The position numbers and the translations under genes are program-made. A DNA stretch of 64,000 nucleotides from the NCBI GenBank assembly GCA_963082975.1, contig OY720348.1, positions 55,455,564 through 55,519,563 on the forward strand, written 5' to 3'. Shown here piece by piece: positions 4,448-55,071 of the stretch. Numbering within the stretch: the first letter of the stretch is position 1; each line of letters starts with the position of its first letter. Source of the stretch: Labia minor (Eukaryota > Arthropoda > Insecta > Dermaptera > Spongiphoridae). A model generated the notes under the pieces. The model was not told the DNA's origin. It saw only the letters and a program-made list of their open reading frames with translations, and searched no databases.

Positions 4448-5420
4448 TTATAATATTCAATAAATAAGATCTAATAATATTAAATTAATTAAAATGAGAA
4501 ATCTTAATAAATTAAATGATATACTTATATATGTTATTTGAGTATCAGAAATAAAAATAAAAATATATAGATTTTTCTTGCTAGATTTTATATTCACAGT
4601 TTTACTATCGCGCCAGAGATAGTATTGCGATCACGAAAATTTCAGATGTCGAGATTTTGATGTTTTTATACGTTTTGAAGGTCCCGAAGTCATTTTCACT
4701 AAGGTACATACCTAAATAAAGAAGAACGTGTGTGCAAGATTACTCAAAAACGGTTTGAGCTAGAATAATGAAATTTGGCATACGGGCATTATTCAAAATT
4801 CGTATTTTTTTTATCAACTTTTGAGAAAATAAGCAAAACCGAAAGAAGGTTTTTTTATTTTTTTTCCTCTAAACTCACCGTAAAAGTAAAGCTATATGTT
4901 TGATAGTTTTTCACATGATTAAAAATTGTATAAAACTGCTATATATAGAATTCCAGCTTGATTGAATAGCCCAAAGTACGGGAATTAATTTTTTAACACT
5001 GCAAATCACGCGCCAGCACGTGACGTGGTCCCATCAACAAAGAGTCAAACACACGCTAGTATAAATATTATTTATTGATTTTAATTTATAATTTAATTAA
5101 TTAGATTTAATTTAAATATAATATGTGTTACTTAATCTAATTCAAATTTGCGAGATAGTCAAGTGGAGACACCCAGATTTTTATATTTATTGTCGAACAT
5201 GTAAGGATAGGTTAGCATCGTTCTTTATAATATTAAAAAAATATGGTCTATTAATATTAAATTAATTAAAATGAGAAATTTTAATCAATTAAATGATATA
5301 CTAAAATGTTATTTGTGAGTATAAGAAATAAAAATAAAAATATATATTCGTGCTAGATTTTGTATTCACATTTTTATATTCATTGGTGAACATGTAAGGA
5401 TAGGTTAGCATCAAATGAAC
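4448..5420. repeat. Local tandem duplication split by a family B insertion
   Basis: The segment 4448-4600 plus 5177-5220 is repeated as 5221-5420. Both copies contain the poly-AT core with TTAAATTAATTAAAATGAGAA and the tail GAACATGTAAGGATAGGTTA. In the first copy the two halves are separated by a family B element at 4604-5176. The second copy is the empty version of the same site. Confidence 0.75.
4604..5176 (+). mobile_element. Family B (helentron-like) copy
   Basis: Starts ACTATCGCGCCAGAGATAGT after a T run and ends with the degenerate 3' hairpin region GTGGAGACACCCAG. The internal module GAAATTTGGCATACGGGC and the block CACGCGCCAGCACGTGACGT are present. No coding capacity. Confidence 0.85.
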
Positions 5421-5715
5421 AGGGCGGTTTTACATTAAATTTATTCTGATTAAATGATTTATACTAAAAATTAATTCCTGTTTTGTTTTTTTTTTAAATT
5501 GATTTATTATTTAATAAAAGTGATTATAAGATAAGAAAAGTAGAATGTAGTAATTTATAATAATCGATCCACCGAATATACTTTTATCTCCGAAAATACC
5601 CGCAATATTTTTTTAAATAATATTGTCAAATTAAAATAAGAAAATTTAAGAATAAATTTTTAAAACTACCAAACTTTTGCTTAGTAATTAATAACTAACT
5701 CTCTTCTCGTTGCAT

Positions 5716-6189
5716 GCACTGAACCGTCCAACGATTTGAAATAAATTAATTTCCAAACAACATTATATATATATAAAGTATAAAAAAACACATTTTTAAA
5801 ACTTGAATTAAAATGACTAAATTATATTATATTAGTTTTTATTTTTAGTTTAATTAATCAATTATTAATTACTACTATATTTTAAGTGAAATATTTTGGG
5901 ACAATGAATATAAAATTAATACTACCAATACCACTTCCGGTTTCCGGATATACACCAAAAGTTGATCAATTCAATCATACTGATGCATTAAGTAAATATA
6001 TCAAATTTTATCAAATTCCCTTAAGCCGTTCAAGCCGGACACACAATGGACAGACGGACGGACGGAGAGACATCATGCTAAAAATACTTTTTTCTGTTAA
6101 GAAAATGCACGATTCGTGGAGATAAGTAAAAATCTCCACATGTGAAATTTGGTGTGAAGACAATACCTCCCTTACTATCGTCGGTCGGT
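5716..6189 (-). mobile_element. Family A2 (helentron-like) copy
   Basis: Read on the minus strand it starts ACCGACCGACGATAGTAAGG, carries the CCGTCCGTCC array and the pieces complementary to CCACTTCCGGTTTCCGGA, and ends near 5716 in a diverged 3' end. Its middle (about 5790-5920) differs from family A and matches 35181-35440, defining a subfamily called A2 here. Non-coding. Confidence 0.8.
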
Positions 6190-6631
6190 AAAATATAAAT
6201 GTTATCAGTAAAATTTTAAGTAAGATAACAACGGACAATTTGATTTAAATTAAAATTTTTTTTCATGTTTTTGTAATAAAATGGAAGGAAGGAAATGAGT
6301 GGTAGCAGAATTTATAAAATTATTCTTACTTATCTAACCTCTAATCAATTGTATTCTTGTTTCAGGTGTTGTTCAACTCGGATGTTGACACAGAGCTCTC
6401 CCTCCCTTCTTCCTCCCTTCCCCCAATCAATTCATTTCCTCTGTTACTTGGACCAGAAAGCTCATAATTATTTCTAGTTGGTTTGCTTGAACTAGTATTA
6501 GTGAAATTCAAAGTTTGCAATAGGATACTCGATGACCGATACTTAAGATAGATTTAGTTAATTACGGTAAATTGTTTATTACAGATTTAACAACTCCCAC
6601 TCTCTTTATCATTTTCAAAATAAAAATAAAT
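6190..6631. other. Non-coding DNA with a C/T-rich patch
   Basis: A CTCCCTCCCTTCTTCC-type pyrimidine tract lies at about 6399-6422 after an acceptor-like TTGTTTCAG. It has an open frame of about 34 codons to a stop, but no partner exon or similarity, so it is not called as a gene. Confidence 0.4.
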
Positions 6632-7163
6632 CTGGAGTGTCTCCACTCGACTATCTCGAAAATTTGAATTGGATTAATAATAACATATATTTTATTTAAA
6701 TTAAATTATAAATTTTAAAATTAATATATAATATTTATTAAACCAGCGCGTGTTTGGCTATTTGTTGATGGCACCACATCACGTGTTGGCGCGTGATTTG
6801 CAATGTTAAAAAATTAATTCCGGTACTTTCAGCGATTCAATCAAATTGGAATTCTATATATAACAGTTTTATACAAATTTTAATGATGTGAAAAACTATC
6901 AAACATATATCTTTATTTTTACGGTCAGTTTAGAGGAAAAAAATGAAAACGTGGTAGGTAATGGTCCTTTTCCGGATACATTTCTTAAAAGTTGATAGAA
7001 AACTACGAATTTTGAATAATGCCCGTATACCATATTTCATGATTATAGATCAAACCGTTTTTGCGTAATCATTTTACTCAACCTTAGTGAAAATGACTCA
7101 GGGACCTTCAAAACATATAAAACCATCAAAATCTCGACATAGAAAATTTTCTGGCGAGATAGT
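6632..7163 (-). mobile_element. Family B (helentron-like) copy
   Basis: On the minus strand this copy opens ACTATCTCGCCAGAAAATTT and closes with GAGTGGAGACACTCCAG, preserving the 5-bp hairpin stem. The inverted internal copy of the 5' end (CGAGATAGTC) sits immediately before the hairpin. Confidence 0.9.
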
Positions 7164-7633
7164 AAAAAAACATCTGTTAAAAATATATATTACAGAAATA
7201 ATTGAGAGTTCAATTAATAATAGACTGGTGTAATCCATTTGAATGTTTTATTTATAAATGATAATTTAAACAAGATAAGATGTTCTTCTTAGTGATAAAA
7301 TATTCGAGAAGACATCTACGGTCTGGGAGTAATTTCTTTACAACCAACCAATAAAAACTTTAACATGCATTTATTCACCTAACATTATTTATTAAAATCA
7401 ATTTAAAATTAATTTTAATTAATACGTTAATATAAAGTACACAAATTAATTTTCTTTAAAAAAAAAATAAATAAATAATTATTTTTGTAATAACTTTTCT
7501 AATAGTTTATTCAGTTCTGGAGATATAAAAATAATGATAAAAAAACCATGTCAAGTAGTTTAAGATTCATTGCGTTTTCAAATGAAATGCAGTATTGATT
7601 TAAATATATATATATATATTTGTATGGACTCAC

Positions 7634-7726
7634 CGCATATGCACCGATAAGAAAAGCGGCGTTGACTCGTTTCTCCTCGAGCATCGTTGTGTAATGGACG
7701 ATTTTTTTCTTCATTAGATTAACAGA
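7634..7726 (-). CDS. CDC14-type phosphatase, exon 3 (internal)
   Basis: This 93-bp exon encodes 31 residues beginning [20 protein letters not shown] and ending [11 protein letters not shown]. This closely resembles the CDC14 segment KKIVHYT...[14 protein letters not shown] in the N-terminal phosphatase-like domain. CDC14 enzymes are dual-specificity phosphatases that remove phosphate from Cdk sites and act in mitotic exit, cytokinesis and ciliary biology. The exon is bounded by acceptor TTTTTTTCAG and donor GTGAGT on the minus strand, phase 0 on both sides, and follows exactly on the KLK that ends the 18.35-kb exon. The next exon (expected to continue with the YLKKTPEEAY-like part) and the catalytic HCxxGxGR region are not found down to base 1 and must lie to the left. 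The preceding intron is about 10.6 kb. Confidence 0.92.
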
Positions 7727-8251: not shown

Positions 8252-8678
8252 CCCGACCCACGATAGTAATGAAAGGTATTGTTTTCACACCAAATTTCAC
8301 ATGTGGAGATTTTTACATATCTGCATTTTGTTAATAGAAAAAAAGTATTTTTAGCATGATGCCTGTCCGTCTGTCCATGGTGTGTCCGTACAGCTCGAAC
8401 GGCTCAACGGATTAGCATGAATTCACAACTAAAACCGAAAGTGGTAGTTTACAAAGTATTAATTTTATATTCATTGTCAGAAATTTTTCCACAAAAAATA
8501 TAGTAGTAATTAATAATTGAGTAATTAAACTAAAAATAAAAATCAAGATAATATAATTTAGTCATTTTAAGTCAAGTTTTAAAAATATTTTTTTTTATAC
8601 TTTATATATATATATAATGTTGTTTGGTAATTAATTTATTCCAAATCGTCGGTCGGTTCTGTACCTAGCCATAGCTCA
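8252..8678 (+). mobile_element. Family A2 (helentron-like) copy
   Basis: The 5' end CCCGACCCACGATAGTAATG is a decayed ACCGACCGACGATAGTAAGG. The middle matches the A2 copy at 5716-6189. The 3' part has the inverted copy CGTCGGTCGGT followed by CTGTACCTAGCCATAG, a weak hairpin, and CTCA. This gives A2 the same asymmetric end structure as A with a different hairpin sequence. Confidence 0.8.
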
Positions 8679-9026
8679 TTTTTTAAAAGTTAGTCATTAA
8701 ATAATTTCTAATGTAAATTTATATGTAACCCTAAACCCAAATAAGGAAAGAGAACAATATATGTATATATATACATAGTATTAACTGATGAACCTTCTGA
8801 ATTTTCAATATTCAATGTAACTATTTAACCTTGAATTGCTAGATTCGTCACGTCGATAAATATCTCAAGTCCACCTACGAGGTGCTATTTTCTTAGACCA
8901 TTGGAGACCAGTTTTCCACCCCCTCAAAGCCCAATTAAGGTTTGTACAAAAGAAGGAAGATAATTCGATTGGAACGAATTATATAAAAAATCATTTGAAC
9001 GTATAATTTGTAGCTATAGGCCTCTC

Positions 9027-9064
<38 letters not shown>

Positions 9065-10210: not shown

Positions 10211-10740
10211 AGGAATTTCATAGAATTTAAAATTAATTTAAATATTGGTATAAATAAACATAATGGGTAACGGGTAGATTTTTTTTCTTGTAATCTCAGC
10301 ACAAAAGATATCTACTTCAGGGATTAGATAATAAATGATATTCACATAAATTTACATTTCATAGATTGAGATTAGTTTGCTAGAACTAAATGTTCATTTT
10401 CTTTTTTATTTATTGATTCGGATCGTCTCTATTTCATCTTTATTTTGAATAGAATTGCTATATTTTAACATAGATATATTTTGTTAAGATACTTAATCAA
10501 CACCTTACGAGGCATCCTTCATTATAATATAGTACATGGAACACCGAGCTATGGTTCGACCCTTTAAAAAATATTGATATACAATTCTTTAATTATTTAT
10601 TACAATTATTAAATGTTACATCATCGCATCAATCTGATTGAAATGAATGGATCTTATAATATAATAATAATAAATAATAAATAATATTTTAGTGAAAAAA
10701 TATTAAAAATTATAAAACTATATAAAAATTAATTAATAAT
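10211..10740. other. AT-rich non-coding DNA
   Basis: The part around 10550-10640 (TTCGACCCTTTAAAAAATAT and following) is similar to 37284-37370 in the tandem duplication. No gene seen. Confidence 0.45.
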
Positions 10741-11401
10741 AAGTTGACCCGTGGCCAGGTCCGAACCGTCCGACGGTTTGAAGTAAATTAATTTCCAGCT
10801 ACAGAAACAATTTCAAATAATTTTAATATATCTATTAATCTAATAAAAACATATGGATACATAAATAATAAATATAAACATTTTTAATTTTATTTTATTT
10901 ATGTATATGTAAGACCAGGCTGTGACGTCATGAATGACTGGATGACGTCATATAATTTTAAATCAAGAAAAAACTAATAAATATGATTTTTCTCGAGGAT
11001 AAAACCAATACAAAGTGCACACACACACACACACATATGATTCGTGGTGATATACAAAAAAAATCTCCTCAAGTGAAATTTGGTGTGAAAATAACCCTTC
11101 CCTTCCTATCGCCGATCGCTAATACTACCACTTCCGGTTTCCGGAATTGCACCAAAAGTTTATCAATTCATCCCACTGATGCATTAAGTAAATATACCAA
11201 ATTTCATCAAAATCGGTTGAGCCGTTCAGGCTGTACACATCTATACGGACGGACAGACGGACGGACGGACGGACGGACAGACATCATGCTAAAAATACTT
11301 TTTTTCTGTTAAGAAAATGCATGATTCGTGGAGATATGTAAAAATCTCCACATGTGAAATTTGGTGTGAAAACAATACCTCCCTTACTATCGTCGGTCGG
11401 T
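10741..11401 (-). mobile_element. Family A (helentron-like), near full length
   Basis: On the minus strand it runs from ACCGACCGACGATAGTAAGG (5', near 11401) to the hairpin ACCTGGCCACGGGT and CAACTT (3', 10741). The inverse of the 5' repeat lies just before the hairpin. The centre has a (GACG)n-type array at about 11248-11280. Flanking sequence is T-rich. There is no coding capacity; the element would depend on an autonomous relative. Confidence 0.9.
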
Positions 11402-11886: not shown

Positions 11887-12654
11887 TAGATAAATAAATT
11901 AATTAAAATTTAAGTTGTACGCCTGATGGATAGGCAACCAGTTATTCACTTGTTTTGCATTTCTCGGTAAAAATTTATAAAACATGAAAACGCAGTTTTA
12001 TAAAAGAGGTTAATTGTTTTCATTTAATGGAGCAAATACGAAGGAAACATTTCTTGTATATTATAAAAATTAAAATTAGTTAATTAAAGCCTAAAAATTA
12101 TTTAATAAAAAGAGTAAGAATTATCAAAATCTATGTTGTTAATACATTTAAAATTAATTTACTCATTAAAAAATATAATTAAAACTGTTTTATATTATTC
12201 AAATTTGAATATTGCCTTTTAATAAATAATGATATGAATGAAAAAAAAAAGAATAAATAAATAAAATTCTATTACTATTCAATTGGAATATAATTGTATT
12301 TTAAATATAAAAATGTAATATGATGCATATATATTTTTTGTTTTCATTGTTCATATAAAAATTAATTTATTAAAATTATGTTTTAAGCTGAGAAAACAGT
12401 AAAACGCATGACAGAGTGCGGGAGGTTGTCGAGGTCTCAAACCATTCAGGCAATGAAAAAAGATAGTGGGGATAGACGATCTTTGCGGTTTTTAGTGGAG
12501 GTCTCGTGATGTAATTTGGGCCCCCGCTATGAACTATAATTAATTCTAGCATTTTATTAATTAATTAATACAATCAGAGCTACCCTTATTTTATAAACTT
12601 GATTCGATTAAAAAATAATATTTAATGTAATAATAAAAATATTCATTCTTTTTT
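11402..12654. other. AT-rich non-coding DNA
   Basis: Contains (TA)n tracts near 11423-11442 and 11858-11884 and a less AT-rich patch at 12390-12535 that I could not classify. No splice-bounded open frame recognised. Confidence 0.4.
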
Positions 12655-13261
12655 ACTATCTCGCCACTTGATTGAGATCACGAAAATTTTCGATTTTGAG
12701 ATTTTGATGTTTTTATACGTTTTGAAGGTTCCTGCATCATTTTCACTAAGGTTGAGAAAAATTATGTGTGTGTGTGTGTATGTATGTGTGTATGTCGACA
12801 AGATTACGCAAAAACGGTTTGGGCTAGAATCATCAAATTTGGCACATGGGTATTATTCAAAATTCGTAGTTTTCTATCAACTTTTGAGAAATTTAGCTCA
12901 ACCGGAAGAGGGTCATTACCTACAACGTTTTAATTTTTTTTCCTGTAAAGTGACCGTAAAAATAAAGATATATGTTTGATTGTTTTTCACATTATTAAAA
13001 ATGGTATATAACTGCTATATATAGAATTTCAGCTTGATTCAATCGATGAAAGTACCAGAATTAATTTTTCAATACTGCAAATATCACGCGCCAACACGTG
13101 ACGTGGTCGCATCAACAAAGAGCCGGTTTAATAAAGAGCTGGTTTAATAAATATTATCTATTAATTTTAATTTATATTTAATTAATGAAATTTAATTTAA
13201 ATATAATATATGTTATTTAATCCAATTCAAATTGCGAGATAGTCGAGTGGAGACACTCCAG
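12655..13261 (+). mobile_element. Family B (helentron-like), full length
   Basis: Runs from ACTATCTCGCCACTTG to GCGAGATAGTCGAGTGGAGA and CACTCCAG. The hairpin stem GAGTG/CACTC is intact, and the internal GCGAGATAGT is the inverse of the 5' end. A (TG)n run lies at about 12764-12793 where other copies have short GT repeats. Confidence 0.92.
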
Positions 13262-15002
13262 TTTATTTTTATTTTCACTCATGTATATATTATATGTATA
13301 TTATATATTATTAGAGATAAGTATATGCCTGAAATGTTATATTTTCTACTAATATCGGCTGACAGGTAGTGCTACTTTACATCATTTATTTGTTATTTCT
13401 TTAAAAACACCAATAATTTCTAATATTTAAAAGGAAAATGGCCATATTTCTTAAAATATCAAAAAAATTATTTCAAATAATTTTTAGAGAATAAAGATCC
13501 CCTCTCCCACCCACACTTACACCCTCCATCTCTCCTTTCAAGTTCATTTTGCTTTGAATGGCTAAATTAATTTTAATTTTTGAATAATACTAATATTCAA
13601 TTCCTTTTATAGATGTTTTTTAAAGTACTATTTAATTAATAATTATTTTTTTATATTTTAGTAATTTTTAAACTATATCATTTTTTCCCTTCCCTTCTCG
13701 CCTCAATTTCATTCATTCCCCAAGCAATTAATACCATTAATTTGACAATGATAATTTAAATTAAGTAAAATTTATAATTGCTGAAATTGCTTAAATCGAG
13801 TGAATGGGGGCTTCCATATATATTCAACTGGTTTTAATTAATAAAATAGCATAAAAAATTTTATTTTTAATTTTTAAAATTAAAAATTTATCAATAACTA
13901 TATTTAAATCATCTTATAAAAAAATTTTTATACTTATTATATTAAATTCTAGAAGAATTAGTATTATAATGATTAAATTATAAGTTTTAACCAGAAACAT
14001 CTGGGAATGCTAGGAAGCATTACTATCAACGAACTTTTATTCATATTTATCACTAAATTGCATAAATAATTCTAATTTATATGATCTTAATATATTGTGA
14101 GAATTAGATAAATAATGTAGAGAGCAACAAATATTTATAAATCGAAATTTATTTAAATGAAATAAAATTATTTAATTTAAAGAATGAAAATGTAATTTTA
14201 ATCAAAATAAGAAACAATGTTTTTAAAATGTTTTCAAGATTTATTATTTATATTAAAATTTATATTTATATATTGTAATTATAAATCTTCATAATTATAA
14301 TGATACGATTGAAGATGCGCTGAAAATATGGGAAATTTTCAACTTTGACCATGTTCCCAAAAGAATTTTAAAAATCCAAGACCACTTTACACTTATACTT
14401 TTTAAACTCTACTCGAATCCAAAATCAACATTTAAAAAATCGAAATTTTTTGGCGACAGACACACATATATATAGATTTTATAAACGAACTAAAAGTTCG
14501 TTGAAAATTCGATTTTAAATTTTCTAGTAAGTATTTTATTGAGAATGGGGATTTTAAGAATATCTTGTTATATAGGATGCCTCATTGCTACAACCACCAA
14601 ATGAATGATAAAATAACAATTAAATTTAAAAGAGATTAGCTTAGTTAATTTACTAATCCTTTTGTGGGTGGGATAGGACATGTGCTATGCTTCTAATACG
14701 GGAGGATTTGTAAGGGTTGCATTAATTGTATGTTTGGCATCTGTCATTCTCTGTGGGTGATTGAGGGTAGCTTCTAGGAAGGTAGTCCAATAATATTCCA
14801 TAAGGATGATGGGGTAATGCCTATCCAATTTGCTTTGGTGGTGACTAAGCGACTCCCTCCTTCAACCATAAGTAGAACGTTATTTGATCGGATGACCCAT
14901 TTGGAACTTTTATTCCAAAAATCAAAAAAGAATTCAAGCAATTTTTTTTTACATCTATTTATTTTCTATTTTATTCTATTTTTTATTTTATGTGAATTCA
15001 AG
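13262..15002. other. AT-rich non-coding DNA
   Basis: No exon or known transposon recognised. A less AT-rich stretch at 14650-14920 lacks a convincing open frame. It leads into the LINE relic that follows and could be degraded sequence of the same insertion. Confidence 0.35.
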
Positions 15003-17198: not shown

Positions 17199-17614
17199 AC
17201 TATCTCGCCAGAGATAATATTTCGATCACGAAAATTTTCGATATCGAGATTTTGATGTTTTTATACGTTTTGAAGGTTCCTGAATCATTTTCATTAAAGT
17301 TGAGAAAAATGTCTGTCTGTGCGTATGTATTCGTTGGCGCGTGATTTGCAGTGTTAAAAGAATAATTACGGTACTTTCAGAGATTCAATCAAGCTGAAAT
17401 TCTATATATAGCAGTTTTATACAATTTTTAGTCATCTGAAAAACTCTACCTCAACTCTAGCTCAAACCGTTTTCGCGTAATCTTGTCTACATACACACAT
17501 ACATTTTTCTCAACCTTAGTGAAAATGGCTCAGGATCCTTCAAAACGTATAAAAACATCAAAATATCGACATCGAAAATTTTCGTGATCGCAATACTATC
17601 TCTGGCGAGATAGT
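17199..17614. mobile_element. Family B foldback: two 5' ends in opposite orientation
   Basis: The left part, 17199 to about 17335, is the plus-strand 5' end of family B (ACTATCTCGCCAGAGATAAT). The right part, about 17336-17614, is a minus-strand copy starting at 17614 with the same 5' end and reaching the CACGCGCCAACG region. Both 3' ends with their hairpins are missing. The result is an inverted repeat with arms of about 130 bp. Confidence 0.85.
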
Positions 17615-18125: not shown

Positions 18126-18349
18126 TAAGAAAATCAAAATCAATGAGAGAATTTTGTACTGATCATATAATACATCTACCCGGACTTGGCAGGTTGTCAT
18201 TTTATAGGAGACTGAAAAGTCAAAGCTTTCTTTTTTACTTATATATTTTCAAATACAAGCATGGTATACCACTCCCTCCCAACTATTTTTACATTTGTTT
18301 TGACCACACAGATTTGAAAAAAAATAATGTCAACATTGAATGTACTTAC

Positions 18350-18522
18350 CTTTAATTTAGTATTCAGTTTTTGGCAATACCTATATAGCATTGCCAAATT
18401 AAGGGGCCCAAAATCTGAGGAAAAATTCTCATAGACGAGTTCATCGTCAATAGAAAAATAATGAGTGTTGAAGGTTGATTTTGGCCTAACTGATGTCCGT
18501 AAGGTGACGAAATAGAGACGAT
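18350..18522 (-). CDS. CDC14-type phosphatase, exon 2
   Basis: A 173-bp exon whose product reads [20 protein letters not shown] then [20 protein letters not shown] and ends [17 protein letters not shown]. It matches CDC14 proteins nearly residue for residue (for example [39 protein letters not shown]). This is the start of the N-terminal dual-specificity-phosphatase-like domain that shapes the substrate groove. Acceptor TTGTTTCAG and donor GTAAGT are clear on the minus strand. The exon takes one base from exon 1 to make the Asp of DRLYF and ends in phase 0, joining to SVNLM in the 7.6-kb exon. A two- or three-residue insertion (TSV before RPKST) relative to the vertebrate form is seen. Confidence 0.95.
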
Positions 18523-18659
18523 CTGAAACAATAGATAAAAAAGAAAATGAATATTTAGTCATACCAATCTATGAAATATAAATTTATGTGAAAATCATTT
18601 AAACATGAACATATGAAGAATCAGCAAATAAAAAAAGTTTAAAATGGGATTATATCTTG

Positions 18660-22379: not shown

Positions 22380-22570
22380 ATTGATGACGTCATTTAATTC
22401 TCCTATGTTTCGAATAAAAATAAATCTTAAATCATAAACAATTTCAAATAATTTAAATGTATCTATTAATGAAATAAAAAAACAAATATGAATATATAGG
22501 TGGCTGTGACGTCATATATATACATTTAAATTAAAAAAAAACTAATGAAGATGATTTTTTTCCAGACATG
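22380..22570 (-). mobile_element. Old family A relic
   Basis: The two TGACGTCAT-containing blocks (22383 and 22506), the segment ACAATTTCAAATAATTTAAA and the AAAAAAAACTAAT.AAGATGA block appear in the same order and spacing as in family A (for example 10810-10990). Both ends are lost. Confidence 0.6.
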
Positions 22571-32240: not shown

Positions 32241-32464
32241 CCTAATGATGTGTAATGGATAAAAATTGGGATAATTTTCTATTCGTTATTCATTATTTTG
32301 GTATAAAATATATTCATAAATCATTCTTCATCATAAAAAGTAATACAAATTAGAATTTCTGACTTCCTTGATTGATGTGTTTTTTCTGTCGTTTATTTGA
32401 TCTTACTAACATATATTTTATTTATTTATTTTTATGAATGAGTCATTAGACCAAGATTGCCTCG
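31684..32464. other. AT-rich non-coding DNA
   Basis: Contains two long (TA)n tracts (about 32175-32191 and 32205-32239) flanked by ATCATTAGGTTAT and its inverse, forming a TA-rich hairpin. Confidence 0.45.
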
Positions 32465-33590
32465 TCTGAGATGTCGAGATTTTGATGTTTTTATACGTTT
32501 TGAAGGTCCCTGACTCGTTCTCTCTCTCGCTGTGTGTGTGTGCTTGAGCTAGAATAATGAAATTTGGTACACGGGCTTTATTCAAAATTTGTAGTTTTCT
32601 ATCAACTTTTGAGAAATGTAGCTCATTCGGAAGAGGACCATTACCTACCATGTTTTCATTTTTTTTCCTCTAAACTGACCGTAAAAATAAAGATATATGT
32701 TTGATTGTTTTTCACATGATTAATAAGTTGTCCTGTGGCCAGGTCCGAACCGACCGACGGTTTGAAGTAAATTAATTAGCAGCTACAGAAACAATTTCAA
32801 AAAATTTTAATATATCTATTAATAATAAAAAACAGATATGGATACATAAATAATAAATATAAACATTTTTAATTTTATTTTATTTATAATATATATGCAA
32901 GACCAGGCTGTGACGTCATGAATGTCTGGATGACGTCATATAATTTTAAATCAAGAAAAAACTAATAAATATGATTTTCCCGAGGGTAAAACCAATACAA
33001 AGTGCATGATTCGTGGTGTTTATAAAAAAATCTCCTCATGTGAAATTTGGTGTGAAAATAACCCTTCCATTCCTATCGTCGATCGCTAATACTACCACTT
33101 CCGGTTTTCGGATTTGCACCAAAAGTTTATCAATTCATCCCACTGATGCATTAAGTAAATATACCAAATTTCATCAAAATCGGTTGAGCCGTTCAGGCTG
33201 TACACATCTATATGGACGGACAGACGGACGGACAGACATCATGCTAAAAATACTTTTTTCTGTTAAGAAAATGCATGATTCGTGGAGATATGTAAAAATC
33301 TCCACATGTGAAATTTGGTGTGAAAACAATACCTCCCTTACTATCGTCGGTCGGTAAAAATTGTATAAAACTGCTATATATAGAATTTCAGCTGGATTGA
33401 ATCGCTGAAAGTACCGGAATTAATTTTTTAAATCGACTACAAATCACGCGCCATCAGAGCCAAACACGCGTTGATTTATAAAATATTATTTATTAATTTT
33501 AATTTATAATTAAATTTAATTTAAATATATAATATATGTTATTCAATCCAATTCAAATTGCGAGATAGTCGAGTGGAGACACTCCAGCTT
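32465..33590 (+). mobile_element. Family B copy split by a family A insertion
   Basis: 5' part 32465-32724 lacks the first bases of family B. The 3' part 33356-33590 ends with the intact hairpin GAGTGGAGACACTCCAGCTT. The break falls inside the block CACATGATTAAAAATTGTAT that is continuous in other copies. A (TG)n tract is near 32533-32541. Confidence 0.92.
32725..33355 (-). mobile_element. Family A inserted in family B
   Basis: The minus-strand 5' end ACCGACCGACGATAGTAAGG lies at 33355 and the 3' hairpin plus CAACTT at 32725. Comparison with uninterrupted family B copies shows that the insertion adds the element plus two or three extra bases (TA or TTA). A short target duplication or a T-run target are both possible. 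Confidence 0.93.
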
Positions 33591-34463: not shown

Positions 34464-34505
34464 ATGAGCTGTGGTCAGGCACAGAACCGACCGACAATTT
34501 GAAAT
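34464..34505 (-). mobile_element. Family A2 3' end, cut by family A
   Basis: On the minus strand: GTCGGTCGGTTCTGTGCCTG and ACCACAGCTCAT, with hairpin stem CTGTG/CACAG. It is the 3' end of an A2 copy whose interior resumes at 35181 after the inserted family A element. Confidence 0.7.
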
Positions 34506-35180
34506 AAGTTGACCTGTGGCCAGGTCCGAACCGACCGACGGTTTGAAATAAATTAATTTCCAGCTACAGAAACAATTTCAAATAATTTTAATATATCTAT
34601 TAATGTAATAAAAAACAGATATGGATACATAAATAATAAATATAAACATTTTTAATTTTATTTTATTTATTATATATATATGCAAGACCAGGCTGTGACG
34701 TCATGAATGACTGGATGACGTCATATAATTTTAAATCAAGAAAAAAACTAATAAATATGATTTTCCCGAGGATAAAACCAATACAAAGTGCATGATTCGT
34801 GGTGATATATAAAAAAATCTCCTTTGGTGTGAAAATAACCCTTTCCTTCCTATCGTCGATCGCTAATACTACCACTTCCGGTTTCCGGAATTGCACCAAA
34901 AGTTGATCAATTCATCCCACTGATGCATTAAGTAAATCTACCAAATTTCATCAAAATCGGTTGAGCCGTTCAGGCTGTACACATCTATACGGACGGACAG
35001 ACGGACGGACAGACGGACGGACAGACGGACGGACAGACGGACGGACAGACGGACGGACAGACATCATGCTAAAAATACTTTTTTCTGTTTAGAAAATGCA
35101 TGATTCGTGGAGATATGTAAAAATCTCCACATGTGAAATTTGGTGTGAAAACAATACCTCCCTTACTATCGTCGGTCGGT
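34506..35180 (-). mobile_element. Family A with an expanded GACG/GACA array
   Basis: Full-length copy with a perfect 3' hairpin (ACCTG-GCCA-CAGGT then CAACTT). The central array at about 34991-35061 consists of roughly nine alternating GACGGACG/GACA units, the longest in the window. Confidence 0.93.
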
Positions 35181-35440
35181 AAAAACTTGAATTCAAATGA
35201 CAAGATTATATTATATTGGTTTTTATTTTTAGTTTAATTACTCAATTATTAATTAATACTATATTTTTTTGTGAAAAATTTCTGAAAATGAATATAAAAT
35301 TAACACTTTGTAAACTACCACTTCCGGTATCCGAATATACACCAAAAGTTGATGAATTCATGCTACTGATGCATTAAGTAAAAATACTAAATTTATTCAA
35401 AATCCGTTGAATCGTTCGAGCTGTACACGTCTATACGAAC
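35181..35440 (-). mobile_element. Family A2 interior (also at 37702-37961)
   Basis: Matches 5800-6040 of the A2 copy at 5.7-6.2 kb: CTTGAATTCAAATGACAAGA, TTTAGTTTAATTACTCAATT and AATGAATATAAAATTAACAC. The 5' end of this A2 copy is cut off by the mariner fragment that follows. Confidence 0.75.
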
Positions 35441-35444
35441 ACAC

Positions 35445-35553
35445 AGTGAAGCATTCAGTTAATATAAGTTGCCTGCTGACAGGAGTAGAGTTGCCATTTC
35501 ATTTAAGAGACTGGAAATTCAAAAAATCACGAACATATTGACCTGCCCTCGTA
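35445..35553 (-). mobile_element. Mariner 5' end fragment (also at 37966-38074)
   Basis: Minus strand starts TACGAGGGCAGGTCAATATG, the terminal repeat of the mariner family seen at 31.68 kb, followed by 5' leader-like sequence with CAGGCAACTTATATTAACTG. No transposase remains. The second copy results from the tandem duplication. Confidence 0.75.
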
Positions 35554-35780
35554 ATTTCCTAATAATTTTGATCGTTAGATTTGATTCTAGACGTTTTCGT
35601 GCCATTTTCAATGAAAGTTTATTTAAGAGTAATTTTTTGGGGATTCCATGTTTTAGATGATCATTATATATATATATATATATATATATTAATAAAAATA
35701 ATAAAAAATAAAAATAGAAATAAAAATAAATAAATTTCCTTGTGGGTCAGTGGTAGGTAGTAGAATAGACCCATCCTATC

Positions 35781-36620
35781 TAGGGTGACCATATTTTGAA
35801 AATACCAAACCGGGTCAAATTGTTTACCTTTTTATACCGACCGACGATAGTAAGGGAGGTATTGTTTTCACACCAAATTTCACATGTGGAGATTTTTACA
35901 TATCTCCACGAATCATGCATTTTCTTAACAGAAAAAAGTATTTTTAGCATGTTGTCTGTCCGTCCGTCCGTCCGTATAGATGTGTACAGCCTGAACGGCT
36001 CAACCGATTTTGATGAAATTTGGTATATTTACTTAATGCATCGGTGGGATGAATTGATCAACTTTTGGTGCAAATTCGGAAACCGGAAGTGGTAGTATTA
36101 GCGATCGACGATAGGAAGGGAAGGGTTATTTTCACACCAAATTTCACATGAGGAGATTTTTTTATATATCATCACGAATCATGCACTTTGTATTGGTTTT
36201 ATCATCGGGAAAATCATATTTATTAGTTTTTTCTTGATTTAAAATTATATGACGTCATCCAGCCATTCATGAAGTCACAGCCTTGCATATATATTATAAA
36301 TAAAATAAAATCAAAAATGTTTATATTTATTATTTATGTATGCCTATCTATTTTTTATTACATTAATAGATATATTAAAATTATTTGAAATTGTTTCTGA
36401 GCTGCTAATTAATTTACTTCAAACCGTCGGTCGGTTCGGACCTGGCCACAGGTCAACTTATTTTTAAGAACCTAATTGAAAAAATTTTGAAAAAAAGTAC
36501 TAAATGTCCTATATATTTAAATAAAAAACGGGACAACAGGCTGTCCCGAAGACATTTTTCGAGACGCCGAGACAGAGCACCTAAAAACGACAATCCCGGA
36601 AAAACGGGATGGTCACCCTA
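35781..36620. mobile_element. hAT-like MITE carrying a nested family A
   Basis: Ends TAGGGTGACCAT and, inverted, TAGGGTGACCAT are flanked by ATCCTATC (35773-35780) and ATCATATC (36621-36628), an 8-bp duplication with one change. Without the family A insertion the MITE is about 216 bp. GACAACAGGCTGTCC and GGAAAAACGGGATGG are typical of this widespread GGTGACCA element type. Confidence 0.85.
35836..36459 (+). mobile_element. Family A nested in the hAT-like MITE
   Basis: Complete copy from ACCGACCGACGATAGTAAGG to the perfect hairpin ACCTGGCCACAGGT and CAACTT. The array is short (GTCCGTCCGTCCGTCC). Confidence 0.93.
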
Positions 36621-36628
36621 ATCATATC

Positions 36629-37617
36629 CCTATATTAGTCTTAAACCAATCACTGAATAAGAGTTCTTGTTTCCTCATTGGTTAGATAGATGAGAGATTA
36701 GATGAGTTGTATGATTAAAAGAAAGAGAGATGGTACAAAGTATTAAGTAATTTCAATAATAAATATAATTATAAATTATATATATTAATCATATATATAA
36801 TATTAAGATAAAAATCTCAAGAAGCAATCATTTAATCTATAAATATATAATAATTTCCGTGAATATATCATATAGAGATAATAAACAATAAATTGAATTT
36901 ATATTGATATATCTATAAATATATTAAAAATCAACGTAACGTTCCACTTTATGATAAATGAAAGGATAAAAATTTAATAAAAATAAATAAAAACCGAAGG
37001 AGATTAACATCAAACAACTTTGTTGACTCGGTTTCAAATTTATAATATTTCATGGGGATAAAATCAGTTTTTTTTTATATTTTTTGAAATCCTCATTGAA
37101 TTATTATAGGTGTTTTTTTTTTATGTATAAATGATTTTCCATGAGATTGAATTTAAAAAGATAAAAAATAAAAAAAAAACATCCAAAAAAAATTTGCCAA
37201 AATGAAATTATATAAAAACTTGAAATATATATATCAATAAATAAATATATATATATGTATAGTACCTGGGATACCGAGCTCTCGCTTGACCCTTTAAAAA
37301 ATATTGATATACAATTCTTTAATTATTTATTACAATTATTAAATATTACATAAATGCATCAATCTGATTAAAATAAGTGGAACTTGGGGTCATCAATAAT
37401 AGCCAGCGAGCCACATAAACAAAATGATTCTTTATTACCGGGTTTGGCTGGTAATATTAATACCGTTCCAATAATTTAAAAAATCTTAAATGACTAATAA
37501 AACATATACTCCTTAAACGTATGAATTAATGCATTGAAAGATAGAAATGTAGACCTGTCGATATAAAATATATATATTTTCGTAAATTTGATTTATTTGT
37601 ATGTATATATAGATAAA
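36629..37617. other. AT-rich DNA inside the duplicated unit
   Basis: No gene recognised; 37260-37400 is similar to 10545-10640. Repeated at 39152-40140. Confidence 0.4.
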
Positions 37618-38303
37618 TGCATGATTCGTGGAGATATGTAAAAATCTCCACATGTGAAATTTGGTGTGAAAACAATACCTCCCTTACTATCGTCGGTCGG
37701 TAAAAACTTGAATTCAAATGACAAGATTATATTATATTGGTTTTTATTTTTAGTTTAATTACTCAATTATTAATTAATACTATATTTTTTTGTGAAAAAT
37801 TTCTGAAAATGAATATAAAATTAACACTTTGTAAACTACCACTTCCGGTATCCGAATATACACCAAAAGTTGATGAATTCATGCTACTGATGCATTAAGT
37901 AAAAATACTAAATTTATTCAAAATCCGTTGAATCGTTCGAGCTGTACACGTCTATACGAACACACAGTGAAGCATTCAGTTAATATAAGTTGCCTGCTGA
38001 CAGGAGTAGAGTTGCCATTTCATTTAAGAGACTGGAAATTCAAAAAATCACGAACATATTGACCTGCCCTCGTAATTTCCTAATAATTTTGATCGTTAGA
38101 TTTGATTCTAGACGTTTTCGTGCCATTTTCAATGAAAGTTTATTTAAGAGTAATTTTTTGGGGATTCCATGTTTTAGATGATCATTATATATATATATAT
38201 ATATATATATATTAATAAAAATAATAAAAAATAAAAATAGAAATAAAAATAAATAAATTTCCTTGTGGGTCAGTGGTAGGTAGTAGAATAGACCCATCCT
38301 ATC

Positions 38304-39143
38304 TAGGGTGACCATATTTTGAAAATACCAAACCGGGTCAAATTGTTTACCTTTTTATACCGACCGACGATAGTAAGGGAGGTATTGTTTTCACACCAAA
38401 TTTCACATGTGGAGATTTTTACATATCTCCACGAATCATGCATTTTCTTAACAGAAAAAAGTATTTTTTGCATGTTGTCTGTCCGTCCGTCCGTCCGTAT
38501 AGATGTGTACAGCCTGAACGGCTCAACCGATTTTGATGAAATTTGGTATATTTACTTAATGCATCGGTGGGATGAATTGATCAACTTTTGGTGCAAATTC
38601 GGAAACCGGAAGTGGTAGTATTAGCGATCGACGATAGGAAGGGAAGGGTTATTTTCACACCAAATTTCACATGAGGAGATTTTTTTATATATCATCACGA
38701 ATCATGCACTTTGTATTGGTTTTATCATCGGGAAAATCATATTTATTAGTTTTTTCTTGATTTAAAATTATATGACGTCATCCAGCCATTCATGAAGTCA
38801 CAGCCTTGCATATATATTATAAATAAAATAAAATCAAAAATGTTTATATTTATTATTTATGTATGCCTATCTATTTTTTATTACATTAATAGATATATTA
38901 AAATTATTTGAAATTGTTTCTGAGCTGCTAATTAATTTACTTCAAACCGTCGGTCGGTTCGGACCTGGCCACAGGTCAACTTATTTTTAAGAACCTAATT
39001 GAAAAAATTTTGAAAAAAAGTACTAAATGTCCTATATATTTAAATAAAAAACGGGACAACAGGCTGTCCCGAAGACATTTTTCGAGACGCCGAGACAGAG
39101 CACCTAAAAACGACAATCCCGGAAAAACGGGATGGTCACCCTA
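38304..39143. mobile_element. hAT-like MITE, second copy by duplication
   Basis: Identical layout to 35781-36620, including the nested family A, so it arose by duplication and not by a new insertion. Confidence 0.88.
38359..38982 (+). mobile_element. Family A nested, second copy by duplication
   Basis: Copy of 35836-36459 with one noticed substitution near 38470. Confidence 0.92.
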
Positions 39144-40355
39144 ATCATATCCCTATATTAGTCTTAAACCAATCACTGAATAAGAGTTCTTGTTTCCTCA
39201 TTGGTTAGATAGATGAGAGATTAGATGAGTTGTATGATTAAAAGAAAGAGAGATGGTACAAAGTATTAAGTAATTTCAATAATAAATATAATTATAAATT
39301 ATATATATTAATCATATATATAATATTAAGATAAAAATCTCAAGAAGCAATCATTTAATCTATAAATATATAATAATTTCCGTGAATATATCATATAGAG
39401 ATAATAAACAATAAATTGAATTTATATTGATATATCTATAAATATATTAAAAATCAACGTAACGTTCCACTTTATGATAAATGAAAGGATAAAAATTTAA
39501 TAAAAATAAATAAAAACCGAAGGAGATTAACATCAAACAACTTTGTTGACTCGGTTTCAAATTTATAATATTTCATGGGGATAAAATCAGTTTTTTTTTA
39601 TATTTTTTGAAATCCTCATTGAATTATTATAGGTGTTTTTTTTTTATGTATAAATGATTTTCCATGAGATTGAATTTAAAAAGATAAAAAATAAAAAAAA
39701 AACATCCAAAAAAAATTTGCCAAAATGAAATTATATAAAAACTTGAAATATATATATCAATAAATAAATATATATATATGTATAGTACCTGGGATACCGA
39801 GCTCTCGCTTGACCCTTTAAAAAATATTGATATACAATTCTTTAATTATTTATTACAATTATTAAATATTACATAAATGCATCAATCTGATTAAAATAAG
39901 TGGAACTTGGGGTCATCAATAATAGCCAGCGAGCCACATAAACAAAATGATTCTTTATTACCGGGTTTGGCTGGTAATATTAATACCGTTCCAATAATTT
40001 AAAAAATCTTAAATGACTAATAAAACATATACTCCTTAAACGTATGTATTAATGCATTGAAAGATAGAAATGTAGACCTGTCGATATAAAATATATATAT
40101 TTTCGTAAATTTGATTTATTTGTATGTATATATAGATAAAAAGGTTTTTCTCTGCACATTGCTGTGAATTTAAAATTTTTGCATACCTTCGCGTTTCATG
40201 ATCTCTAGAATCCAAGAGTGATTTGAGAATTTTTCATGACTGTCTGTTTGGAAATTTTGACGTTATAGAGTCAAAATTGGTTGAACCGGTTTCGATGAAA
40301 TTACATACCTCTATTTTTTCAATATATATTCAATAACCACAGAAATTAAGTCTTT

Positions 40356-41069
40356 CCTCATTTTCGTGGATTTGGATAATACTTTACCAGTGGGTTCCTT
40401 TTGCATTCCAAATAAACTTTTATTATGAAATTTTTTCCGGCATCTTATAGTTGTCAAAATAAAAATAATTAAAATTTGCATATGAATCCATTGATATTTA
40501 ATTTAGCTACCATGTTTTATCAATTGACCACTAGAGTGCGCCACTAATTTTCAGTTTTTATAAGTTCTGTTTGGATTTATGAAAATTAAAAAATTAATTA
40601 AATAATTTTCCTATATCCAAACCGAACTTATAAAAACCGAAAAGTAATGAATAAGTAAATAATTAGTGAATTAGTCAATAAAACATTACTTAATGCCACA
40701 TTTCGACGTTCATAATACTAAGGTGTCCAACCGTCCAAGAGTCCTCCATTTGTTCTTCTTATGTAAGTGTCCTCCTAACTGTCTTCTTTTTGATATCTGT
40801 TTTTTGAAATATTTAGGACATTCGTACTTTTTTCCAAAATTTTTTTCAATTTGGTTCTAAAAAAAAAAAAGGTAAAATGTCTTGATTTGGTGTTTTCAAA
40901 AAAAATGGTCACCTTAATAGTACTAATCTGTCAAACTTAAAAAATCTTTATTTTAATAATTTCTATCTCGAAAACTATAAGATGCCGGAAAAAATTTCAT
41001 AAGAAAAGTTTATTTGGAATGCAAAAGGAACCCAATGGTAACGTATTATCCAAATCCACCAAAATGAGT
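40356..41069. repeat. Foldback repeat C, copy 2 (interrupted)
   Basis: Left arm starts CCTCATTTTCGTGGATTTGG and right arm ends CCAAATCCACCAAAATGAG, paired over the outer part with GGGTTCCTTTTGCATTCCAA against TTGGAATGCAAAAGGAACCC. A 197-bp hAT-like element is inserted at 40720-40916. Confidence 0.82.
40720..40916. mobile_element. hAT-like MITE inserted in foldback C
   Basis: Ends AAGGTGTCCA and, inverted, TAAGGTGACCA are flanked by ATAATACT (40712-40719) and ATAGTACT (40917-40924), an 8-bp duplication with one change. It is related to the MITE at 35781 and shares a CAATTTGGTTCTAAAA segment with the MITEs at 15.8 and 54.1 kb. Confidence 0.78.
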
Positions 41070-42743: not shown

Positions 42744-43067
42744 TTCAGTGCTATATATTTATATATACAAAAAGGAATTCATTCGGCCTTGTTTTGTCTT
42801 TAAAAGAGTCGAAAGGGTGGGAGGGCATTCATCGAACTGTTGTCGGGTCGTGGGTAACGAGGACCAGGCACACAATTACAACTCGGAAAAAAGGTCACAA
42901 AAGTTCATTGAATTTGAAAATATATATATATATATATATTAAATTTTTTTCATTTATTTACTAACGTGACATATATAGGAATGGTTAAATAAACAGTACA
43001 TTTATTTTTTTTAATTGATAAAAATAAAATAATGATTAAATATTATAAAGATTTATTCTTAAATAAG
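42666..43067. other. AT-rich non-coding DNA with (TA)n
   Basis: (TA)n at about 42711-42740 and 42921-42939. The segment around 42790-42865 is GC-richer and unclassified. TAAATTTTTTTCATTTATTT and ACTAACGTGACATATAT are repeated at about 42330 and 42940. Confidence 0.4.
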
Positions 43068-43630
43068 CTGGAGTGTCTCCACTCGTCTCTCTCGCAAATT
43101 TGAATTGGATTAAATAACATATATTATATTTAAGTTAAATTTAATTAATTATAAATTAACATTAATAAATAATATTTATTAAATCAGCGTATGTTTGGCT
43201 CTTTGTTTATGGCACCACGTCACGTACTGGCGCGTGATTTGAAATGTTAAAAAATTAATTCCGGTACTTTCAGCGATTCAATCAAGCAGAAATTCTATAT
43301 ATAAAAGTTTTATACAGTTTTTAATCATGTGAAAAACTATCAAACATATATCTTTATTTTTAAGGGCAGTTTAGATGAAAAAAAATCAAACGGTGTAGGT
43401 AATCGTCTTTCGATTGAGCTACATTTCTTAAAAGTTGATAGAAAACTACGAATTTTGAATAATGCCCGTATACCAAATTTCATGATTCTAGCTCAAACCG
43501 TTTTCTACACACATAGACATTTTTCTCAGCCTTAGTGAAAATGATTCAGGAACCTTCAAAACGTATAAAAACATCAAAATATCGACATCGAAAATTTCCG
43601 TGATCGTAATACTATCTCTGGCGAGATAGT
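43068..43630 (-). mobile_element. Family B (helentron-like), full length
   Basis: Runs on the minus strand from ACTATCTCGCCAGAGATAGT (43630) to an intact hairpin GAGTGGAGACACTCCAG (43068). The palindromic 5' end TACTATCTCGCCAGAGATAGTA-type hairpin is well kept. Confidence 0.93.
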
Positions 43631-45712: not shown

Positions 45713-46101
45713 ACTATCTCGCCATATTTTTTTTCATAGTATTGCGATCATGAAAATTTGAGATTTTGATGTTTTTATACGTTTTGAAGGTCCGTAAAAA
45801 AAGATATATGTTTGATTGTTTTTCACATGATTAAAAATTGTATAAAACTGCTATATATAGAATTTCAGCTTGATTGAATCGCTGAAAGTACCAGAATTAA
45901 TTTTTTAACACTGCAAATCTCACGCGCCAACACGTGACGTTGTGCCTTCAACAAAGAGACAAACACACGCTGGGGGGGGGTTAATAAATATTATTTATTA
46001 ATTTTAATTTATAATTGATAATCAATTGAATTTAATTTAAATATTATATATGTTATTTAATCCAATTCAAATTGCGAGATAGTCGAGTGGAGACAATCCA
46101 G
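45713..46101 (+). mobile_element. Family B, internally deleted
   Basis: The 5' end ACTATCTCGCC and the 3' end with GCGAGATAGTCGAGTGGAGA are kept, but about 200 bp from the middle, including the ATGAAATTTGGTATA module, are missing. Confidence 0.88.
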
Positions 46102-46723
46102 CTTATTATTTTCAATATCACAAATACTAATTATATTCTCATATATAACTATTAATTCATCCAATTAAATAAAATAAATAAAATCAATATATCATTTAAT
46201 ATGAAAAAAAATCATATTTTTTTAAAAAGCCAATTGAAATTAATATTTGATTTTAGGTTCAATTTATCTTTTTATTTAAATAAATAAAAATAAAAAAAAA
46301 ATTCAACTAACGTTCAGTAGGTTATCATCAATTTGAAAATAGCATTTAATTACAATTCTATTTATATTTATAAATAATATAATAAACCTTTTTTTTTCCT
46401 CTTCAAACTAAATTCAATATTAAATTCAATATTATCTTCTCTTATCATGGATGTTAAAAAAAATACTAATATTAATATTACTATTATAATTATTTTTTAT
46501 TTGATTAATATATATATATATATTTAAAAAACATTTTTAAATAATTTAATGAGAATGCGAGAATAATATTGAAAAATATATCAAAATTTAAATTAATAAA
46601 AAAAACAAATAATAATAAGTATAAGTATAAATATAATTTTTAAATGATTGATCATCATAATGAATATCTTGAGTTGATATTTTTCTACATATATTGAATA
46701 ATTTTATATTTTTAATTCTTCAG
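46102..46723. other. AT-rich non-coding DNA
   Basis: No recognised feature. Confidence 0.45.
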
Positions 46724-48112: not shown

Positions 48113-48113
<1 letters not shown>

Positions 48114-49835: not shown

Positions 49836-49837
49836 TA

Positions 49838-53760: not shown

Positions 53761-53769
53761 TCTACCCTG

Positions 53770-54092
53770 ACGTGGTAATAAAAATTAAGGACTTTAAAAA
53801 ATTTCATTCTCATTCATTGATGTCTTATAGGAAATTTTATGTGGTTTATTTCTGACAAAACGCATCCGACATATTTTTAACCAGTTTACTGATTCTCCAT
53901 CAGAATTCTTAGCCTGTTTAAAAATTGCGTCTTCTAATACTTTTGTGAAACACAATCTTCTTGTCTCATTTCATTTACAATAAAATTATTACCTTTCCGA
54001 CAATTTTTAATAATCTTGTAGTAATCTTGGGGAACAAAGAGTAAATTATTTTTTTTAATGACATTTCCAGCACTCTTCCAATAATCTTGATG
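53770..54092 (-). pseudogene. Unidentified protein-coding relic
   Basis: Two successive minus-strand frames give protein-like sequence: HQDYWKSAGNVIKKNNLLFV, PQDYYKIIKNCRKGNNF, NEMRQEDCV, then VLEDAIFKQAKNSD, SVNWLKICRMRF and KPHKISYKTSMNENEIF. Composition and the Trp/Tyr pattern look like a real protein and not random AT-rich translation. It is broken about once and lacks a start. I do not recognise the family; a mobile-element protein is more likely than a host gene given the setting. Confidence 0.45.
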
Positions 54093-54097
54093 TAAGA

Positions 54098-54365
54098 CAG
54101 CGATTCTCAACTTGTGGGGCGCGCAAGCATACTTCAGGGGGGCGCGAGCATATCCAAGAGAAAATTCCCGACTTTTTTCCTATAGAGTTCTAAAAAAAAA
54201 AAGTAAGATGATTTTGTGGGCAAACTTTTGAACATTTTCGATTATTTTTGAATTTTTTTCAATATGGTTCTAAAAAAAGGTTTTTGCGATGCACTGAAAC
54301 ATTTCCGATGGGCGGGAGGGGCTGATTGAAAATTGGGACGTGAATACTAAAAGATTGAGAAACTG
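54098..54365. mobile_element. hAT-type MITE
   Basis: Starts CAGCGATTCTCAACTTGTGG and ends with GAGAAACTG, resembling the MITE at 15.8 kb and the common CAG.G.TTCTCAA ends of hAT elements. Flanks ATGTAAGA and ACATTAAA match at only 5 of 8 positions, so the target duplication is decayed. Confidence 0.68.
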
Positions 54366-54500
54366 ACATTAAACTACACGGTTTAGTAATTGAATTAATT
54401 CTGATGTGTCAAAAATTTATTGTATTTGCTTGGAATAAAAATAATCTGAAAAAATTCACTGATAAATAACATGTACATGTTGCCATAACCGGCAAAAAAA

Positions 54501-55071
54501 CTGGAGTGTCTCGACTCGACTATCTCGCAAGTTTGAATTAGATTAAATAACATATATTATATTTAAATTAAATTTAATAAATTATAAATTAATAAAAAAA
54601 TACTTATTAAACCAGCGTATGTTTGGCTCTTTGTTTATGGCACACGTCACGTGCTGGCGCGTGATTTGATGTTAAAAAATTAATTCCGGTACTTTCAGCG
54701 ATTCAATCAAGCAGAAATTCTATATATAGAGGTTTTATACAATTTGTAATCATGTGAAAAACTATCAAACATATATCTTTATTTTTAAGGGCAGTTTAGA
54801 TGAAAAAAAATCAAAACGGTGTAGGTAATCGTCTTTCGATTGAGCTACATTTCTTGATAAAAGTTGATAGAAAACTACGAATTTTGAATAATGCCCGTAT
54901 ACCAAATTTCATGATTCTAGCTCAAACTATTAATCTTGTCTACATACACACAGACATTTTTCTCAACCTTATTGTTAGTGAAAATGACTCAGGGACCTTC
55001 AAAACGTATAAAAACATCAAAATCTCGACATCGAAAATTTTCGTGATCGCAATTCTATTCCCAGAGATAGT
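54501..55071 (-). mobile_element. Family B (helentron-like), full length
   Basis: 5' end ACTATCTCTGGGAATAG (55071) is slightly decayed. The 3' end GCGAGATAGTCGAGTCGAGA, CACTCCAG is present with one stem mismatch. The body is close to 43068-43630, including ATGAAATTTGGTATACGGGC. Confidence 0.92.

Follow-up and report, generated by a model that had tools for sequence, protein, structure and literature searches.

We analyzed a stretch of 64,000 nucleotides from Labia minor (Dermaptera; GenBank assembly GCA_963082975.1, contig OY720348.1, positions 55,455,564 to 55,519,563 of the forward strand), hereafter the window, in which two repeat families, A and B, share one plan of their ends. It is highly probable that both belong to the Helentron-type rolling-circle transposons as non-autonomous members (HINEs), B being a deletion derivative of a Helentron resident in the same genome and A probably moving via a related Helentron. 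An earlier note on this DNA had proposed a helentron/DINE-like nature from the letters of the window; as the ends match the helentron plan and the end of B was found on a Rep/helicase element, this proposal is most likely right. A and B represent a known class of element, and no published match for either family was found in searches of open-licence literature. Here, end structure alone predicted the class of transposon and the rest of the genome bore the prediction out, so that an abundant non-coding family was tied to a probable source of its enzyme within that genome. In annotation, elements of this kind are readily labelled as miniature inverted-repeat transposable elements (MITEs), a label that the link therefore corrects.

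End architecture and insertion sites of families A and B

The main form of family A, termed A2, is ~635 bp long. It starts with ACCGACCGACG, contains a GTCY array, and ends with CGTCGGTCGGT, a hairpin and CAACTTA; its first letters are ACCGACC and its 3'-terminal letters CAACTTATT. In order, A2 comprises a T-run, ACCGACCGACGATAGTAAGG, a GTCC/GTCT array from position 119-120 (the tetranucleotide array of the earlier note), the core TCAACCGATTTTGATGAAATTTGGTATA, another 5'-like unit, TGACGTCA once or twice, and finally CGTCGGTCGGT-TCG-GACCTG-GCCA-CAGGTC-AACTTA. The predicted hairpin ACCTG-GCCA-CAGGT was present; in A2 its stem is actually 6 bp long (GACCTG-GCCA-CAGGTC), and none of 200 shuffles was as stable. 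A second subfamily, A1 (6189, 8252 and the remnant 34464-35460), differs from A2 in its 3' end.

Family B is ~590 bp long and starts with ACTATCTCGCC (5' terminus ACTATCTCGC, first letters ACTATC), including a 5' inverted repeat; it ends with GCGAGATAGT, a hairpin and CCAGCTTA (3'-terminal letters CCAGCTTATT). A T-run is followed by ACTATCTC-GCCA-GAGATAGT, a variable TGTG/TATG-rich tract, ATGAAATTTGGTATA and the 3' part GCGAGATAGTC-GAGTG-GAGA-CACTC-CAGCTTA. The 3' hairpin GAGTG-GAGA-CACTC described earlier was found; however, its 5-bp stem is weak (z -1.14; 28/200 shuffles as stable), yet retained in most copies, and the strong structure of B is instead the 5' inverted repeat (z -4.24; 0/200 shuffles).

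These motifs and the shared end plan lay where the earlier note had placed them, far above chance: ACCGACCGACG with at most one mismatch matched 15 times in the window against 0.06 expected, and ACTATCTCGCC 12 times against 0.11. Window copies were mapped with blastn and then aligned. The 3' copy of the subterminal inverted repeat (subTIR), which is 11 bp long in A, was exact in five of the eight A ends, one of which comes from a duplicated copy (remainder with 1, 2 and 1 changes), and in five of the seven B ends (remainder with 1 and 2 changes); stems of 4 bp or more without interruption were present in 5/8 A ends and 6/7 B ends. A structural detector (T-run plus 10-bp arm, then inverse arm, hairpin and TT) gave six window matches, all in A/B elements. 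Three of them lie in B (12655), in A2 (35836) and in the duplicate of this A2 copy (38359); the other three overlap at A2 35180, and one of these joins the A2 5' arm to a 3' arm that belongs to an A1 remnant next to it. Sixty shuffles gave a mean of 0.03 matches and at most 1.

A and B had been called unrelated in sequence. Both carry the 15-nt word ATGAAATTTGGTATA after the tetranucleotide tract, and a common word of this length occurred in 1 of 1000 shuffles, suggesting that they are perhaps not entirely unrelated. Gapped local scores of A2 against two B copies were reached in 64 and 70 of 500 shuffles, and those of A1 against B in 0 and 19 of 500, with reverse-complement controls scoring about equally; these alignments are AT-rich and the scores do not settle kinship.

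The genome (604 Mb, 71 contigs) yielded 4126 first-look candidates with an A2 query and 8425 with a B query, which are not copy counts as only 40 candidates were scored per family. For each family, 20 of the best places were fetched, a set biased toward window copies. All 20 A2 copies begin with ACCGACCGACGATA and carry the 3' subTIR-hairpin block, and both ends were recognized in 19 of 20 B copies when up to 5 of 19 letters of the 5' end were allowed to change; in the remaining copy (L039), the 5' end was not found. At least three Ts preceded 18/20 fetched A2 copies, 17/19 fetched B copies and, in agreement with the T-rich flanks noted earlier, 14/15 window 5' ends (duplicated copies left out). 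Median pairwise identity was 97.3% among fetched A2 and 91.7% among fetched B copies; A2 thus looks younger than B, which agrees with the nesting of A2 in B.

Such nesting was observed in the window and at four of the 20 fetched A2 places (L004, L010, L011 and L013), L004 and L010 being favoured as the A2 query included 25 bases of B flank. The insertions occupy three B positions: one shared by window 33355 and L010, one at L011 and one at L013. At all three, the filled site equals ACCG...CTTA plus two more Ts than the empty site, although the comparison for L013 requires one C-to-T difference from the window B copies; L004 shows the 5' side of the first site, and its 3' side, being A2 sequence, was unused. 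A T-rich target with no change beyond Ts was seen at these three A2-in-B empty sites, and T-runs precede most copies. Symmetric terminal repeats and consistent target duplications, which together would speak against a Helentron-type origin, were sought and not encountered beyond an ambiguous TT: in neither family are the 20 nt at the 3' terminus inverse to those at the 5' terminus, and at the best of a grid of boundary offsets, flanking duplications of 5, 6 or 8 nt occurred in at most 1/20 A2 and in 3, 2 and 0 of 19 B copies. In addition, one of the 20 fetched B places (L037) holds two B copies joined head to tail through a complete 3' end (CCAGCTAATT|ACTATC), a junction expected if a rolling circle overran its stop.

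A Rep/helicase element with the 3' end of B, and alternative explanations

The earlier note had called for a long Rep/helicase element sharing the last 30 bp of the families; for B, two copies of such an element (R8 and L075) share the last ~40 bp, whereas none was found for A. The Helitron_like_N profile had 104 matches in the genome, and ten 20-kb Rep/helicase stretches were fetched. R8 (C1:47.86 Mb, Rep match 47868109-47868492) contains a single open reading frame (ORF) of 2181 aa with DUF6570, Helitron_like_N (1.1e-23) and PIF1 (1.6e-31). Its Rep motif VEFQMRGSPHEH (GSPHEH) carries the S that marks Helentrons (GSPHxH) in the passages of Thomas et al. 2014 (PMC4067079) on which we draw; this and the other papers are cited here for individual passages. 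Among the eight Rep ORFs read, five (R5-R9) have GSPH and three (R1-R3) have GLPH with the Helitron-type L.

The R8 element is roughly 12 kb long, and its 3' end is the last ~40 bp of B. In all 21 B copies tested, these ~40 bp match R8 12129-12167 at 89-100%, the segment from near base 1 to ~477 matches R8 from near base 1, and B ~270-504 matches 510-746; the B 5' end starts ~4.3 kb upstream of the R8 ORF in the same orientation. L075 (C1:44694842), a 97% copy recovered by a search with the R8 endonuclease part, has a Rep match ~3 kb upstream of it on the same strand and is 99.2% identical to R8 over the last 249 bp, the flanks diverging just after CCAGCTAATTTTA. As the two copies end alike and then diverge, the 3' terminus of the Rep/helicase element itself is the terminus of B. 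Judged by these matches, the R8 Helentron is the probable autonomous partner of B, from which B was most likely derived by deletion as a HINE. An A2 fragment is likewise present in R8, as is an unrelated ~715-bp repeat downstream of the ORF, and R8 is therefore probably an old copy.

After the R8 helicase, we found Exo_endo_phos_2 (1.2e-4; 22.3 bits against a cut-off of 27.4) at the place expected for an AP endonuclease, and then Peptidase_C48 (7e-4), both below the Pfam cut-offs. We tentatively consider, as a possibility that is rather doubtful, that the protein combines Rep/helicase, AP endonuclease and Ulp1-like (C48) cysteine protease in one chain. If so, Helentrons would have recruited a SUMO/ubiquitin-type protease as an Ulp1-type domain besides OTU or VTD, the domains named for Helentrons in passages of PMC9741609; no published case of an Ulp1/C48 domain in a Helentron was found in the open-licence literature.

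Several observations weigh against the Helentron-type interpretation. The subTIR of B is 10 bp long, one below the 11 bp of the family criterion (a 5' subTIR of ~11-15 bp whose inverse lies close to the 3' terminus; PMC4067079). HINEs and Helentrons have a 5' inverted repeat beside the subTIR or a palindromic subTIR; B has such an inverted repeat, whereas none was found at the 5' end of A (z 0.19). The second mark of Thomas et al., (F/Y)(w/l/y/k)R before the Rep motif, is partial in R8 (YER). The endonuclease match appeared only with the 289-aa piece alone, being above 0.001 in a 1979-aa scan, and a PDB search with this piece gave no relative (best E 1.9). The two extra Ts at the filled sites are either a TT duplication or the element's own, and TT duplication is indistinguishable from none, an ambiguity also described by Thomas et al. 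2014 and by Yang and Barbash 2008 (PMC2374699). Duplications of 2-4 nt were slightly above cross-pairing at the best offsets (B, 3 nt: 6/19 against 2.6). A B-like 5' end was present at one Rep/helicase copy only, R8. C60, a partial copy with 97.7% identity over 2.9 kb of coding sequence, had no B sequence in 9 kb (5.4 kb upstream), and the 2.2 kb fetched for the degenerate copy L076 contained no 3' end of B; the 5' link thus comes from one locus. No element combining the A ends with a Rep/helicase was found in the ten 20-kb Rep/helicase stretches or in the 1.4 kb after one related ORF, about half of these 1.4 kb being still open frame. As no autonomous partner was found for A, its assignment is a structural one, by which it is very probably a HINE.

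It is improbable, given the shared terminus, that R8 is not the partner of B and that B pieces lie around it by chance or R8 inserted in a B copy. The single B 5' end and the lack of B upstream of C60 would fit this, as the B 5' end of R8 could be a separate B insertion, and lone B 3' fragments do exist, e.g., 118 bp near another Rep/helicase (R10) on the opposite strand. However, two copies with different flanks stop alike in the last ~40 bp of B without the rest of the B 3' part, elsewhere in the ten stretches, B 3' matches are longer (at least 118 bp), and the R8 ORF carries a Helentron-type HUH motif.

The same 3' terminus on two Rep/helicase copies also speaks against a cut-and-paste origin, in which A and B would be MITE-like, mobilized by a DDE transposase and flanked by TT as a 2-bp target duplication; we regard this origin as very improbable. 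A TT duplication is possible at the three A2-in-B sites, and a Tc1/mariner-like transposase ORF of 300 aa lies in the window at 24398-25297; yet neither family has ends that are inverses over 20 nt, and their repeat is subterminal on one side with a hairpin after it. A SINE-like or otherwise retroposed origin, to which the many first-look candidates could point, is least credible of all: no tRNA and no Rfam family at the gathering threshold were found in the window, and the elements have no poly(A) tail, a fixed 3' hairpin end and TT insertion. The ends of canonical Helitrons were considered as well and rejected, since A (ACCG...CTTA) and B (ACTATC...CTTA) lie in T-runs and do not show 5' TC, 3' CTRR or insertion between A and T.

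Apparent composite structure of A2 and distribution of copies in the window

A second 5'-like unit starts at position 261-281 of A2 in 20/20 fetched copies; A1 copies did not show it in the window alignment. In four compared window A2 copies, the homology of this unit to the true 5' end starts at the terminus itself (TTA/TA), so that A2 looks like a head-to-tail tandem of a 3'-truncated unit and a second unit. Tandem Helitrons with 3'-truncated inner copies are reported in passages of PMC7492417.

Each A2 copy has one or two TGACGTCA palindromes, which we take to be the CRE/ATF consensus, 20 bp apart in window copies with two; among the fetched A2 copies, 20/20 had at least one and 16 had two. 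Perfect palindromes stand at 10923, 10943, 32911, 32931, 34696, 34716, 36250 and 38773, and also at 22385 and 22507. Questions of dating and of regulation arise from the A2 insertions nested in B and from the TGACGTCA pair of A2.

The copies in the window are listed in Table 1. Family A starts at 3341, before the range given in the earlier note. A and B together cover ~14.5% of the window (with the spans used here); they are abundant, but "dominant force", as they had been called, is strong wording for this coverage.

Table 1. Copies and fragments of families A and B, in positions of the window.
Feature	Positions	Strand
A family 5' fragment: T-run, subTIR, GTCY array	3341..3506	+
A1 copy, 3' end decayed	5700..6189	-
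A1 copy, both subTIRs and A1-type 3' end	8252..8690	+
A2 copy, full length	10735..11401	-
A2 internal fragment, ends not recognized	22433..22565	-
A2 copy within B copy; empty site from other B copies	32723..33355	-
A1 remnant 3' end, hairpin CTGTG-CCTGAC-CACAG	34464..34502	-
A2 copy inside A1 remnant; longest GTCY array of the window	34503..35180	-
Internal part of A1 remnant that holds A2 34503..35180	35185..35460	-
A2 copy, full length	35836..36462	+
A pieces, duplicated (tandem duplication)	37615..37981	-
Duplicate of A2 copy 35836	38359..38985	+
B copy, full length	4604..5178	+
B copy, full length	6630..7163	-
B copy, full length	12655..13266	+
B 5' end, head to head with B at 17333..17614	17199..17330	+
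B copy without 3' end, head to head with B 5' end at 17199..17330	17333..17614	-
B copy split by A2 32723-33355; 5' tip not recognizable	32449..33586	+
B copy, full length	43062..43630	-
B copy, internal deletion	45713..46110	+
B copy, full length	54496..55071	-

Some window A copies belong to a tandem duplication of 2.52 kb (35094-37614 / 37615-40136; 99.9% identical) that starts inside an A element and is either very recent or an assembly artefact. The facing B 5' ends at 17199-17614, which have no B 3' end, are 91% alike over 117 bp; because other copies resemble each of them at least as closely, two insertions appear more likely than one inverted duplication. At 40140-40400, GACTGTCTGTTT is followed by GGTTGAACCGGTTTCGATGAAATT (7 mismatches to the A core; shuffle mean 0.005 at that level), a possible remnant of a third HINE-like family. 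By eye, the A2 copy at 35836 lies within a MITE-like repeat (35780-36625) with the ends AGGGTGACCAT...ATGGTCACCCT, and 40370-41065 is a MITE-like inverted repeat with ~100 bp arms around ~500 bp.

Pfam identified no Rep/helicase among 120 ORFs of the window, out of 122 pre-filtered by length, complexity and A/B overlap. A CDC14 phosphatase exon was found at 18242-18568 (DSPn 4.7e-25; closest PDB chain CDC14A), which by itself points most likely to an animal host. Elsewhere in the genome, open Helitron-type Rep/helicases of 1652 aa were found at C9:43365333, C10:14925745, C9:45506044, C1:82181971 and C5:81088381; a comparison of two of these loci gave 99.9% identity over 8.4 kb, and by this identity the 1652-aa Helitron is judged to be recently active. 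Exact-pattern scans for A/B relatives in viral contigs and genome contigs gave nothing, as did a plasmid search with one A2 copy, and none of the papers listed for the core word ATGAAATTTGG dealt with transposons by title.

Proposed mechanism and comparison with known systems

We propose that the Rep/helicase of an autonomous element would nick beside the 5' subTIR in a T-run and peel off one strand, for which the 3' subTIR and hairpin would be the stop signal. A hairpin acting as terminator has been shown for the Helitron Helraiser in passages of PMC4778049. The peeled strand would be joined into another T-run, between Ts, with no longer target duplication. B would consist of the first ~500-750 bp and the last ~40 bp of a ~12-kb Helentron with the 2181-aa Rep/helicase ORF, and A, with the same end plan and target, would probably use a related Helentron as enzyme source.

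Compared with the passages on HINEs and Helentrons of Thomas, Vadnagara and Pritham (2014, PMC4067079), A and B have in common a subTIR that stands at the 5' tip and recurs within the 3' end, the 3' palindrome, and the T-rich target with no detectable target change; B and R8 resemble them further as a probable short deletion derivative and a Rep/helicase element, with a putative endonuclease, that has the GSPH.H motif. The differences are the 10-bp subTIR of B, the missing 5' inverted repeat of A, and the putative C-terminal protease of R8, which matches Ulp1/C48 and not OTU. DINE-1/INE-1 of Drosophila, as portrayed in passages of Yang and Barbash (2008, PMC2374699), shares the subTIR, a GTCY-rich microsatellite in the 5' block, the 3' stem-loop and the TT preference, and also, with B, a partial inverted repeat beside the 5' subTIR. 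However, A and B differ from it in sequence, in subTIR length (10-11 against 13 bp) and in having no long central repeat region. Cg_HINE of the Pacific oyster is similar in its subTIR of 11-12 bp, GTCY/GTCC microsatellite and 3' palindrome in passages of PMC7492417, whereas A and B are without its satellite-like central array. Canonical Helitrons such as Helraiser (passages of PMC4778049) share the rolling-circle plan and hairpin terminator, but A and B lack their TC...CTRR ends and are not inserted between A and T; Rep/helicases of this canonical type (R1-R3) coexist with A and B in the Labia minor genome.

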